Assembly: GCF_030730945.1 (NCBI RefSeq) | Contig: NZ_JAVAMS010000004.1 | Coordinates: 1-64,000 of the forward strand | Direction: 5' to 3' | DNA from: Aurantiacibacter poecillastricola | GTDB taxonomy: Bacteria > Pseudomonadota > Alphaproteobacteria > Sphingomonadales > Sphingomonadaceae | DNA: 64,000 nt | Shown here: positions 23,365 through 26,894 of the stretch, piece by piece | Position numbering within the stretch: the first letter of the stretch is position 1 | Layout: every line of letters begins with the position of its first letter | Notes under the pieces: generated by a model | What the model was told of the DNA's origin: nothing | Database searches by the model: none | The model's input: only the letters and a program-made list of their open reading frames with translations | Position numbers and translations under genes: made by a program

Positions 23365-24018
23365 TCAACCGATCAGACCCTCGGGATCGGGTAGGATGGC
23401 GCCTAGTACCAGCGCTCCTTCGCTGTGGTGATACTGCACGTTGCCCTCGTCCCGCTCCACGATCAGGCGAATGAGATGCGCAGGAGCGGTGCGACCGGAG
23501 AGTTCGCTGGCTTCGAGCGAGCCGTCGAGCGCCTTGCCGATGTTCGCATCGAAAGCGATGCGCGGGCCAGATGCGCGAATGGCGATCTCGGTATTGCCGG
23601 CATTGCGCTCCGCCCCGACGGCCAGCGTTCCGCCGCGGACCAGCGAATCGAGGCCCATGGCGGCAAGATTCAGCAGTACCTTGACTGCGGGTTTCGAAAG
23701 GCTGCTTTCGCTTACCGCCCAGTCCAGCGTCAGCCGCTCGTCCGATGCCGTCAGCGATTCGAGCAATTCATGCGGTTCCTCCGTCGGCACCTGTTCGCCG
23801 AAGCCCCCGGCCGCGCCATAGGCGAGGCGGAAGAACTTGAGCTTGTTGGCGGAGATCTTCGCGCTCTGCTCCAGCAGGTCGAGGCAGCGCTGGCGCATCG
23901 CCGGGTCCTTCTCGTCGGCGAGCAGTTCCAGTCCGTTATTCAACGCTCCCACGGGGCTGAGCATGTCATGGCAAAGGCGCGAACAGAGCAGGGAGGCAAG
24001 ATCGAGGGAAGAGGTCAT
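23365..24018 (-). CDS. chpT: Histidine phosphotransferase ChpT
   Basis: A 217-residue pseudo-histidine-kinase that passes phosphate from CckA to CtrA and CpdR, the alphaproteobacterial cell-cycle relay. The phospho-accepting His is in CSRLCHDMLSPVGALNN at about residue 17. The remainder has the degenerate HATPase-like fold of ChpT (VKVLLNLAAMGLDSLVRGG, then GALVLGAILP) without ATP-binding N and G boxes. It lies 30 bases upstream of the amidase gene on the same strand. Confidence 0.92.
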   Translation of the reverse strand: MTSSLDLASLLCSRLCHDMLSPVGALNNGLELLADEKDPAMRQRCLDLLEQSAKISANKLKFFRLAYGAAGGFGEQVPTEEPHELLESLTASDERLTLDWAVSESSLSKPAVKVLLNLAAMGLDSLVRGGTLAVGAERNAGNTEIAIRASGPRIAFDANIGKALDGSLEASELSGRTAPAHLIRLIVERDEGNVQYHHSEGALVLGAILPDPEGLIG

Positions 24019-24157: not shown

Positions 24158-24853
24158 CTAGGCGTTGAGGACCCGGTAGGGAAGCTCCGCAAAACCTCTG
24201 GGCGCATCGCGCCACCAGCCGATCTCGTTCCTGCCGACGATAGCCCACACCGCGCCGTCATGCGCGGCTTCGGCCCAGTCGGTTTTCGACGGACGCGGCG
24301 AACCGGTTGGATGCGAATGGTAATAGCCGAGCACCTGCGGTCCGCCGACACGCGCGGCACGATGGGCATCTATTAGCGCTTGCGGGTCGATCTCGAAATG
24401 CGCCTGCGGCGCGGGGTGAACGTTGCGGGCGGGCAGGGCAGCGCTGATGGTGTCGCCCTGCCCGAGGAGGATGCCGCAACATTCATGCGGATGGGCGCGC
24501 GCGGCTTCGAAGCGGATCAGGTGGAGAACTCTGCTTTCAACCCGAACCGGCTGCCCTAAGCCTGTCGAAGGGCTGCCCTTGCTTCTGGCATGGTGCGAGA
24601 GGGCATCCCAATCCCCGCGGATGAGAGCGAGCTTCTTCCTTCTCGACCACCTCTTGATCTGTTTTTCTGCCGCCTTCGCCTCCTCGCGCGTGCCGAACTC
24701 CTGCGACCAGACCAGCTTTACCGGCAAATGATCGCGGGTGAAGCCTGCCAGTTCTCCGCGCTCGTGCTGAGGGATACGCCGCTCGAGGTCGTCGGTGTGG
24801 CCAGTGTAAAAATAGCCGCCATTGCAATGGAGGAGATAGGTCCAGAAAGGCAC
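24158..24853 (-). CDS. GIY-YIG nuclease domain fused to a JAMM/M67 metallopeptidase
   Basis: One 231-residue frame holds two domains. Residues 1-90 are a GIY-YIG endonuclease of the small stand-alone type (YLLHCNGGYFYTGHTDDLERR, then EFGTREEAKAAEKQIKRW). Residues about 105-231 are a JAB1/MPN/Mov34 peptidase with all JAMM residues: Glu in HECCGILLG, then YYHSHPTGSP followed by SKTD. The joint (KGSPSTGLGQPVRV) is encoded by a 34-bp repeat that recurs inverted just before the start. Between the repeat and the JAMM core there is no ATG, GTG or TTG in frame, so the peptidase should be made only as a fusion. The start is GTG at 24853. Confidence 0.85.
   Translation of the reverse strand: MPFWTYLLHCNGGYFYTGHTDDLERRIPQHERGELAGFTRDHLPVKLVWSQEFGTREEAKAAEKQIKRWSRRKKLALIRGDWDALSHHARSKGSPSTGLGQPVRVESRVLHLIRFEAARAHPHECCGILLGQGDTISAALPARNVHPAPQAHFEIDPQALIDAHRAARVGGPQVLGYYHSHPTGSPRPSKTDWAEAAHDGAVWAIVGRNEIGWWRDAPRGFAELPYRVLNA
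24547..24580 (+). repeat. 34-bp REP-like repeat, copy A
   Basis: This copy matches copy B (24870-24903, opposite strand) at 30 of 34 positions. The core TGTCGAAGGGCTGCC is identical in both. It lies inside the coding region at the joint of the GIY-YIG and JAMM parts. The core has short internal complementarity (GCCCT and AGGGC), as in repetitive extragenic palindromes. Confidence 0.85.
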
Positions 24854-24869
24854 GGGCAGTGGCTAAAAG

Positions 24870-24903
24870 AAAGGCAGCCCTTCGACAAGCTCAGGGCAGT
24901 CGG
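24870..24903 (-). repeat. 34-bp REP-like repeat, copy B (inverted)
   Basis: The inverted partner of copy A lies 17 bases upstream of the GIY-YIG start and 11 bases before the rluD-like start. Together the two copies bracket a 357-bp unit that contains only the GIY-YIG part, like terminal repeats of a mobile cassette. I found no target duplication outside them. Confidence 0.85.
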
Positions 24904-24914
24904 TAAAGGAAGGT

Positions 24915-25868
24915 GTGCCTGAACTCCAAACCCTCACCGGAACCGTTACGACGAACGCCCGCCTCGACAAGGCGCTTGCCGAAGCGACCGAATTGTCGAG
25001 GGAGCGAGTCAAGGCTCTCATCGCCGAGGGGAAGATCGAGGTTGAGGGCAAGGTGGCCACCAACGCCTCGATGAAGGTCGAAGCAGGCGCGGCGTTCCTT
25101 ATCCACCTGCCACCCCCCAGCAATCCACAGGCTCGTCCACAGGATATCCCCATAGCTGTCACCTATGAGGACGAGCACCTGATCGTGGTGGACAAGCCTG
25201 CCGGAATGGTGGTCCACCCGGCAGCGGGCAATCCGGACGGCACGCTGGTGAACGCACTCCTCCACCATTGCCGCGGGCAGCTTTCGGGCATCGGCGGTGT
25301 GGCACGGCCGGGCATCGTCCACCGAATCGACAAGGATACGTCGGGGCTTCTCGTCGTCGCCAAGTCGGATGCGGCGCATGAGGGACTGGCGAGACAGTTC
25401 GCCGACCACTCGCTGGAGCGGGCCTATCTCGCCGTCTGCGGCGGGCACCCTGTGCCGCCTTCGGGGACGGTCAATGCGCGGTTGGGGCGCTCCGATGCGA
25501 ATCGCAAGAAGATGGCCGTGCTGCCCGACGAATCGAGCCGCGGGAAGCATGCCGTTACGCATTACCGAACGCTGGAACGCCTCGATCACTGCACATTGAT
25601 CGAATGCCGTCTCGAAACAGGGCGAACCCACCAGGTCCGGGTTCACCTTGCGTCAATCGGTCATGCGCTAATAGGTGACCCTGTGTACGGACGCACTCCC
25701 GCCGCATTACGCCCCGTTCTCAAGGGCCTGGGTTTCCAGCGTCAGGCGCTGCATGCGGCGAGGCTGGGGTTCATTCATCCCGTGACCGGTAACCATCTGT
25801 CGTTTGCCAGCGAAATCCCGTCCGATATGCGGGAACTGATCGACGAAACCGGTCATTCCAATCGATGA
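24915..25868 (+). CDS. rluD: RluD-like 23S rRNA pseudouridine synthase
   Basis: A 317-residue RluA-family enzyme that isomerises uridines of helix 69 in 23S rRNA if it is a true RluD. An N-terminal S4 domain (NARLDKALAEATELSRERVK) precedes the catalytic core, with the nucleophilic Asp in HRIDKDTSGLL near residue 140 and ETGRTHQVRVHL near 240. The start is GTG at 24915, close behind AAAGGA. The REP-like repeat ends 11 bases before it and may have altered its leader. RluC is also encoded in this window, at 58017-59165. Confidence 0.88.
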   Translation: MPELQTLTGTVTTNARLDKALAEATELSRERVKALIAEGKIEVEGKVATNASMKVEAGAAFLIHLPPPSNPQARPQDIPIAVTYEDEHLIVVDKPAGMVVHPAAGNPDGTLVNALLHHCRGQLSGIGGVARPGIVHRIDKDTSGLLVVAKSDAAHEGLARQFADHSLERAYLAVCGGHPVPPSGTVNARLGRSDANRKKMAVLPDESSRGKHAVTHYRTLERLDHCTLIECRLETGRTHQVRVHLASIGHALIGDPVYGRTPAALRPVLKGLGFQRQALHAARLGFIHPVTGNHLSFASEIPSDMRELIDETGHSNR

Positions 25869-25991: not shown

Positions 25992-26894
25992 GTGAGTAAC
26001 AATCGACCATCTGTTCCGGCGCTCGGCGGAGAGCAAGGCCTCAACCGCTACTTGTCGGAAATCAAGAAATTCCCCGTGCTGACGCCCGAGCAGGAATACA
26101 TGCTCGCCGTGCGCTACAAGGAGCACGAGGATCCCGACGCTGCTGCGCAGCTCGTCACCTCGCACCTGCGTCTCGTGGCCAAGATCGCCATGGGCTATCG
26201 CGGCTACGGCCTGCCGGTGTCGGACCTCATCTCCGAAGGCAATGTCGGCTTGATGCAGGGCGTGAAGAAGTTCGAGCCCGATCGTGGTTTCCGTCTTGCG
26301 ACCTATGCGATGTGGTGGATCAAGGCTAGCATCCAGGAATTCATCCTGCGCTCGTGGAGCCTCGTGAAAATGGGCACCACCGCCGCGCAGAAGAAGCTGT
26401 TCTTCAATCTTCGCCGAATGAAGAAGCAGCTGGAGGCCTATGAAGACTCCGACCTGTCGCCGGAAGACGTCACGAAGATCGCAACCGATCTCGGCGTGCC
26501 GGAGCAGGAAGTGGTCAACATGAACCGCCGGATGATGATGGGCGGCGACGGGTCGCTCAACACGCCGATGCGCAATGGCGAGGAAGGCTCGGGCGAATGG
26601 ATGGACTGGCTGACGGACGACCGTCCGTTGCAGGACACCATCGTCGCCGATGCTGAGGAAGCCGATGTGCGCCGCGAAATGCTTGTGGAAGCGATGGAAG
26701 CGCTTAACGAGCGTGAGCAGCACATCCTTACCGAGCGCAGGCTGACGGAAAACCCGCAAACGCTGGAAGAGCTCAGCCAGGTCTACGACGTGTCGCGCGA
26801 ACGCATCCGCCAGATCGAAGTGCGCGCGTTCGAGAAGCTGCAGAAGGCGATGCAGAGGATCGCTGGCGAGAGGCTGATGCCGCAGGCTGCGTAA
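25992..26894 (+). CDS. rpoH: Heat-shock sigma factor RpoH (sigma-32)
   Basis: A 300-residue group 3 sigma factor. It starts with GTG at 25992, with AGAAAGG about 10 bases before. Region 2 is visible (HLRLVAKIAMGYRGYG, SEGNVGLMQGVKKF, FRLATYAMWWIKASIQE) and includes the RpoH-type box QKKLFFNLRRMKK after it. Region 4 ends with YDVSRERIRQIEVRAFEKL. It directs transcription of chaperone and protease genes, several of which (clpX, clpP, tig) lie within 13 kb. Strong intrinsic terminator downstream. Confidence 0.96.
   Translation: MSNNRPSVPALGGEQGLNRYLSEIKKFPVLTPEQEYMLAVRYKEHEDPDAAAQLVTSHLRLVAKIAMGYRGYGLPVSDLISEGNVGLMQGVKKFEPDRGFRLATYAMWWIKASIQEFILRSWSLVKMGTTAAQKKLFFNLRRMKKQLEAYEDSDLSPEDVTKIATDLGVPEQEVVNMNRRMMMGGDGSLNTPMRNGEEGSGEWMDWLTDDRPLQDTIVADAEEADVRREMLVEAMEALNEREQHILTERRLTENPQTLEELSQVYDVSRERIRQIEVRAFEKLQKAMQRIAGERLMPQAA

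Follow-up and report, generated by a model that had tools for sequence, protein, structure and literature searches.

A small GIY-YIG nuclease gene between REP-like inverted repeats, a putative mobile cassette of sphingomonads and other bacteria

We analysed a stretch of 64,000 nucleotides of Aurantiacibacter poecillastricola (contig NZ_JAVAMS010000004.1, positions 1 to 64,000), here called the window, in which a GIY-YIG domain is enclosed by two inverted repeats that together form a unit of 357 bp (Table 1). Direct alignment of the two arms (24547-24580 and 24870-24903) yields 30 identical positions out of 34, exactly as the original prediction had it, while the best inverted pair of 34 nt in the base-shuffled region of 1,601 nt reached 26 matches in 100 shuffles. 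Extended by one base each, the arms are 35 nt long and 89% complementary. It had also been claimed that the repeats enclose just one small GIY-YIG gene. This holds for the domain, but not for the reading frame, which the cassette does not close: from its start at 24853 the frame runs through the left arm, which encodes the tail KGSPSTGLGQPV, and continues in-frame into Prok-JAB up to the stop at 24158. In cassette-free relatives the JAB gene appears, as judged by eye, to start at its own ATG. The two arms in the window begin with CCGGCTGCC and CCGACTGCC, respectively, and have no CGTC tag before the hairpin. A search of Rfam with the 357-bp unit returned nothing at the gathering score, and a REP consensus used as a pattern had zero matches within the window.

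Table 1. Coordinates of the cassette, its arms and the neighbouring genes in the window
Feature	Position	Strand	Remarks
ChpT-like histidine phosphotransferase	23365..24018	-	site context
Open frame, 231 aa, GTG start	24158..24853	-	GIY-YIG + repeat-encoded linker + Prok-JAB
Prok-JAB domain PF14464	24212..24532	-	cassette at 5' end of JAB gene
Left terminal inverted repeat, REP-like	24546..24580	-	core 24555-24571
GIY-YIG nuclease domain PF01541, small Slx1-like/UPF0213-like type	24632..24847	-	57.6 bits
Right terminal inverted repeat	24870..24904	+	core 24879-24895 CCTTCGACAAGCTCAGG; upstream of GIY-YIG start
RluA-family pseudouridine synthase	24915..25868	+	other flank of insertion site
rpoH sigma factor	25992..26894	+	site context

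The cassette gene carries PF01541 rather than PF01797, the domain of the HUH tyrosine transposases. Among solved structures, the single GIY-YIG domain of the window's protein best matches 1zg2 (E 1e-14) and 1ywl (E 1.4e-10) rather than UvrC, no chain of which appears at E ≤ 1. Both structures have been assigned to the Slx1 family, with a predicted role in repair (PMC1564403, in the part used here). We then compared 131 small GIY-YIG loci, which are among the best-scoring matches listed and not a random draw (none in a batch of 100 of them is from family f8). According to the alignment score to the window's protein they were split into subfamily A, which includes the window's own protein (68 loci), and subfamily B (63 loci). 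When a subfamily-B profile is compared with the solved structures, UvrC comes third (E 0.016).

Inverted 20-mers that match at 18 or more positions bracket 46 of the 68 subfamily-A genes and 30 of the 63 subfamily-B genes; the remaining 22 and 33 genes have no arms at this threshold. Shuffled sequences gave no such pairs, and swapping the partners between loci gave them in only 20% (A) and 3% (B) of the cases. Thus, the arms resemble the partner at their own locus more than those of other loci. Moreover, arm types cluster on the enzyme trees, with 9 changes compared to 16.4 after shuffling for subfamily A, and 10 compared to 14.4 for subfamily B, values reached in 0 of 200 shuffles each. These tests measure clustering only, with species relatedness still included, and cover 46 of the 68 subfamily-A loci (unique, with the same arm type on both sides) and 71 labelled subfamily-B loci, drawn from the 63 and from a further set of 76 described below. 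Two enzymes of the same genome can have different arm types, as in G057 and G279. On the basis of these comparisons, enzyme and repeat co-vary. The REP-bounded kind does not include every small GIY-YIG gene: of the 16 genes of family f8 (among loci L027-L054), none has bracketing arms at 18/20. The f8 loci also have a lower GC content (mean 43%, compared to 61% for L085-L184).

The original prediction suggested that small GIY-YIG proteins of alphaproteobacteria often end in repeat-derived peptides, and indeed 40 of the 68 subfamily-A proteins have a repeat-derived tail motif. Fusion of the GIY-YIG frame to an RNA methyltransferase that is TrmJ-like by its sequence motif, often via a repeat-encoded peptide, is seen in 20 of the 68 loci (L031, L051, L055, L056, L088, L091-L094, L096, L100, L101, L103, L104, L112, L114, L121, L133, L134 and L163). 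The trmJ-linked copies are spread over about ten genera, and it is possible that this site is long-lived, perhaps domesticated, which weighs against the enzyme as a mover. At another subfamily-A locus, L164, the GIY-YIG frame (300 aa) continues into a further protein downstream.

The repeats are not confined to the cassette. With up to two mismatches, the core CCTTCGACARGCTCAGG is found at 23 places in the window's genome, the reversed control at one. Of these places, 17 fall in inverted pairs, namely the cassette arms and eight gene-less pairs (REPINs), one partner having been accepted with three mismatches. The cores of the eight REPINs lie 55-64 nt apart and have the same relative orientation as in the cassette arms, and by eye their inner ends are similar to those of the cassette. 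One REPIN forms a long hairpin when folded as DNA (z -5.6). The same genome has two PF01541 matches, the cassette gene and one in a frame of 714 aa, which we take to be UvrC. A RAYT-type gene was not found in it; its sole Y1 match is an IS200-type TnpA of 139 aa, encoded elsewhere.

In 297 genomes of the order, the number of core repeats per genome ranges from 0 to 220, and that of PF01541 matches from 0 to 12. The repeat number tracks the GIY-YIG number (rho 0.59 in 236 genomes of the family), including in a within-genus permutation (z 6.7, reached by 0 of 1000 shuffles). Of the 73 family genomes with at most one GIY-YIG match, which we take as UvrC, 43 are without any core repeat and the median is 0, compared to 23 for the 35 family genomes with four to five further matches. 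Similar repeat numbers in genomes without the gene would have refuted the original prediction but were not found, and by genome comparison the copy number of the repeats is dependent on the enzyme. On one side, more than one GIY-YIG match is present in 74 of the 77 family genomes with at least 10 repeats, the exceptions being 3 of the 73 genomes with a single match, and G010 from outside the family has 15 repeats. On the other side, eight family genomes with at least three further GIY-YIG matches have zero core repeats; three of these (G186, G238 and G239) hold 52, 1 and 2 copies of one other variant, and 2, 9 and 2 of a second. Other arm types are dispersed as well, CYTCGACTTCGCTC with up to 180 and CTGAACTTGTTTCAG with up to 105 copies in a set of 80 genomes, with no more than two copies in any of the 14 genomes that have only one GIY-YIG match. 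Since these two patterns miss close variants, e.g. arms with TCTCGACTTCGCTC, zero counts such as those in G187, G263 and G252 are no proof of absence.

The insertion site itself can be compared between relatives. The JAB gene was located in 28 of the 33 genomes of the same genus, including the window's own, and the JAB-RluD site holds a GIY-YIG cassette in 13 of them, a decayed cassette remnant in one (L080, by eye) and is empty in 14. An inverted core pair directly flanks the gene in 12 of the 13 cassettes; in the remaining one, L082, there is a REPIN on one side. All 14 empty sites lack the repeat core, even when up to three mismatches are allowed. In 13 of them JAB and Rlu are 38-69 nt apart, and in L078 the site contains 152 nt of other sequence. 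At the position that the cassette occupies in L073, its sister L072 contains about 16 nt, as judged by eye. Half of the orthologous sites are thus without cassette or repeat core; a lack of empty sites would have refuted the tiny mobile unit that had been proposed. Presence changes at least eight times on the tree of the flanks, a number that is soft because 10 of the 25 inner branches are open. The GIY-YIG gene is reversed in L081 and L083. Moreover, L081 and L082 are sisters by their flanks (96/73), and their GIY-YIG genes fall on opposite sides of a supported branch (96/94). Because sister species have different GIY-YIG clades, some copies are reversed and presence changes, we read the site as one of repeated insertion or replacement, to judge from the aligned relatives, and not of one old insertion alone. 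The GIY-YIG genes of the site are under purifying selection, with dN/dS values of 0.03-0.17 in unsaturated pairs and a median pN/pS of 0.23 (55 pairs from 11 of the 13 genes, two with shorter matches being left out). The dN of L290, one of the G258 copies described below, was dropped due to a frame offset. The junctions were read by eye, and the relatives are too diverged for a target-site duplication or the exact excision product to be read. Two further features were seen by eye: a second REPIN lies beside the cassette in L082, and in L082 and L084 extra sequence inside one arm represents a nested insertion.

We consider it very likely that the unit in the window is a mobile, REP-bounded GIY-YIG cassette. 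Comparative evidence also makes it probable that the cognate REPs are moved by the Slx1-like GIY-YIG nuclease, in the way that GTAG REPs are moved by RAYTs but with an unrelated chemistry. In a homing-type process, the enzyme would cut an existing REP or REPIN, repair between the flanking REPs would copy the gene in, and the REPs themselves would spread otherwise. Such a process would draw on the known role of free-standing GIY-YIG genes as homing endonucleases, on the ready homology that the REP arms offer and on the different cassettes that one site can carry in sister species. We regard it as unlikely, however, since the 14 empty JAB-RluD sites without repeat core mean that the empty allele has no recognition (REP) site, the short stretch in L072 points the same way, and homing would not predict a median of zero REPs where a genome has only one GIY-YIG match.

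Further evidence of mobility comes from another site and from multiple copies. The era gene was found in 60 of the 61 genomes of the genus of genome G258, and among the best 30 of these 60 loci five have a GIY-YIG gene within about 900 nt downstream of era. At least two types, about 54% alike, are represented among these genes, and both orientations occur. Gene-less inverted REP pairs were seen by eye near era in L325 and L326, and L330 and L349 also have REPs. As the sequence that follows era varies, this site provides weaker evidence. G258 itself has 12 PF01541 matches. It contains seven full-length cassettes at different places, about 92-97% identical, three of which have an in-frame stop, and two more partial copies that end at contig ends. 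In G091 there are two cassette copies, 94% alike over 525 nt. The cassette is thus present or absent at orthologous sites and occurs in several copies, as transposable elements do. When a target-site duplication was sought by eye in the G258 copies, the shared sequence was found to continue beyond the REPs, about 35 nt to the left and 25-45 nt to the right, into another dispersed sequence. Another element is therefore a possible carrier in this genome, and a larger dispersed repeat may have helped to spread its cassettes. All seven copies (L273, L276, L281, L286, L290, L295 and L296) lie next to an additional dispersed sequence, GCTGCCRTTCRGCWAKCGACCCC...CCACCCAC, and one like it occurs near era in L331, where there is no cassette. 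We read it as another repeat family, used as a target or carrier.

These copies bear on a second alternative, according to which palindrome-rich genomes keep an Slx1-like nuclease to resolve cruciforms, so that the linkage between enzyme and repeats is selected and not transpositional. It is in line with the correlation between repeat copy number and GIY-YIG number and with the nearest structure, 1zg2, being in the family of the structure-specific Slx1, but it leaves the matched arms around the gene, the near-identical multiple copies, some of them with stops, and the orientation flips unexplained, and we give it little credence. Least probable of all is that an HUH tyrosine transposase (RAYT/IS200-type) or another transposase moves the unit in trans with the GIY-YIG gene as a passenger: a Y1 match is present in 20 of the 77 repeat-rich but in only 3 of the 71 repeat-free family genomes, and the repeated unit of G258 reaches past its REPs, yet 57 of the 77 repeat-rich genomes have no match in this survey of Y1 transposases, for which reason a RAYT was rejected as the general mover despite the enrichment, the window's genome has only the short TnpA, and the sections of a published REP survey drawn on here do not report any transposase gene with CGTC REPs at its flanks (PMC3733652).

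The same 2013 survey divides REPs into GTAG and CGTC families and links RAYTs to the former, whereas CGTC REPs, in the words of the portion cited, 'apparently lack a dedicated transposase' (PMC3733652). It reports CGTC REPs from five phyla and all alphaproteobacterial orders, with hosts including S. chlorophenolicum and S. wittichii, and counts dRS3 of Neisseriae (as CGTC-1) and RPE-4/RPE-6 of Rickettsia among them (PMC3733652). Many small GIY-YIG genes of subfamily B are bracketed by repeats of this kind. Both S. species just named are sphingomonads. A subfamily-B profile had at least 553 matches, the best 80 of which were taken regardless of repeats. Their source genomes are assigned to many phyla by their labels, and a large part are MAGs, whose contigs can be misplaced (one 'Halobacteria' contig has 4.2 kb). 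The 76 loci that were scored, four with short flanks having been left out, have arms at 18/20 in 40 cases. Outward GTC-tagged hairpins occur on both sides of the gene in 36 of the 76 loci, compared to a single one among 138 distant windows and none among 380 shuffles. By the definition given in the survey, as far as it was available (PMC3733652), the subfamily-B arms have the C/TGTC tag, the short hairpin and the CCA tail; the tail and the tag's first base were judged by eye, and CCA is missing from some arms.

Furthermore, 14 of the 50 matches listed from a plasmid collection were inspected. Arms at 18/20 or better are present in Rhizobium CIAT894, Neorhizobium, Azospirillum lipoferum, Shinella, Aeromonas caviae, Novosphingobium aromaticivorans, Sphingomonas parapaucimobilis and Methylobacterium bullatum, and weaker ones (17/20) in S. 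meliloti. Arms at 18/20 are absent from the loci of Photobacterium, Rhizobium K1/93, S. paeninsulae and Cupriavidus metallidurans in this collection. In a Neisseria gonorrhoeae record dRS3-like repeats flank the GIY-YIG gene (by eye), the best pair (19/20) being a different sequence. This record (L309, NZ_CP119142.1) has 2.17 Mb and is filed as a plasmid but resembles a chromosome in size, and its GIY-YIG gene has no listed annotation. In Azospirillum lipoferum (L312, AZO_p3) the GIY-YIG gene bracketed by CGTC REPs lies between sufB and sufC. The Methylobacterium bullatum locus (L322) is a match to the subfamily-A query bracketed by CCTCATCCTGAGG-type repeats, which suggests that Hyphomicrobiales have yet another cognate repeat type.

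How might such a cassette move? The minimal mobile element would be a single-domain Slx1-like GIY-YIG gene between two inverted, hairpin-forming repeats, and the gene-less REPINs elsewhere in the genome would be its non-autonomous derivatives. In single-stranded or extruded DNA, the two REPs of an element would pair or each would fold into a hairpin. The nuclease would then recognise the hairpin together with its foot, which starts with CCG in subfamily A and is the C/TGTC tag in subfamily B, and would nick or cut at the hairpin foot. A hairpin would suit the cassette enzyme as a substrate, because Slx1 is a structure-specific nuclease. Finally, the REP-bounded segment would be copied to a new site, often between genes, by repair or replication. 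In this scheme we infer the nuclease as the catalyst, the position of cleavage, the copying route and the descent of REPINs from the cassette. More broadly, and with some reserve, we favour the idea that stand-alone Slx1-like GIY-YIG proteins are a new class of bacterial transposition enzymes that carry their own gene and spread two large groups of REPs without a known RAYT. One group would be the CGTC REPs, which occur in many phyla and include dRS3 of Neisseria, the other the sphingomonad repeats of the CCTTCGACAAGCTCAGG type. The enzymes would read a hairpin instead of a linear sequence, each clade having its cognate hairpin.

The proposal supplies a directly testable candidate enzyme for the mover of CGTC REPs, which the 2013 survey, in the part cited, left open (PMC3733652). 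If true, it would add a nuclease fold to the bacterial mobilising enzymes, provide a structure-guided DNA cutter of about 90 aa with many natural cognate pairs and account for the in-frame fusions of repeat-encoded peptides to proteins like TrmJ and JAB. Among the matches listed in a literature search, which leaves preprints and most subscription journals outside, no publication ties GIY-YIG to REPs, REPINs, dRS3 or CGTC REPs, and priority is therefore uncertain. Apparent co-mentions of GIY-YIG and 'rayt' were rejected, as 'rayt' is an author name.

GIY-YIG nuclease domains are found in other selfish elements, namely the GIY-YIG homing endonucleases and the Penelope-like elements. In contrast to these, the cassette has no intron, no DNA-binding add-on and no reverse transcriptase, and is bounded by REPs. 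MITEs are gene-less elements that have the same terminal inverted repeats as a gene-carrying autonomous parent; unlike such parents, the cassette ends in REP hairpins and its gene is no known transposase. By sequence, the cassette protein belongs to the same single-domain family as the Slx1-like prokaryotic GIY-YIG proteins (UPF0213; 1zg2 and 1ywl), which the part of PMC1564403 used here does not tie to cassette repeats or mobility. The arms of subfamily B resemble CGTC-tagged REPs in their C/TGTC tag, short perfect stem, mostly present CCA tail and arrangement as inverted dimers, but whereas these REPs have no dedicated transposase in the cited part of PMC3733652, here a small GIY-YIG gene is bracketed by such repeats. 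The window's subfamily-A arms differ from them in having no CGTC tag and form a separate group. The closest parallel in organisation is the REPtron, consisting of RAYT/TnpA_REP, GTAG REPs and REPINs: like the cassette system, it has a small enzyme gene that inverted hairpin repeats adjoin or enclose, pairs of such repeats dispersed in the genome (eight gene-less ones in that of the window) and repeat-specific enzymes. The REPtron enzyme, however, is an HUH tyrosine transposase and that of the cassette a GIY-YIG nuclease, and the REPtron repeats carry GTAG, which the cassette repeats lack, having a C/TGTC tag in subfamily B and a CCG-starting foot in subfamily A instead. Since it has no HUH enzyme, the cassette is not a member of the REPtron family, yet it would work like one.
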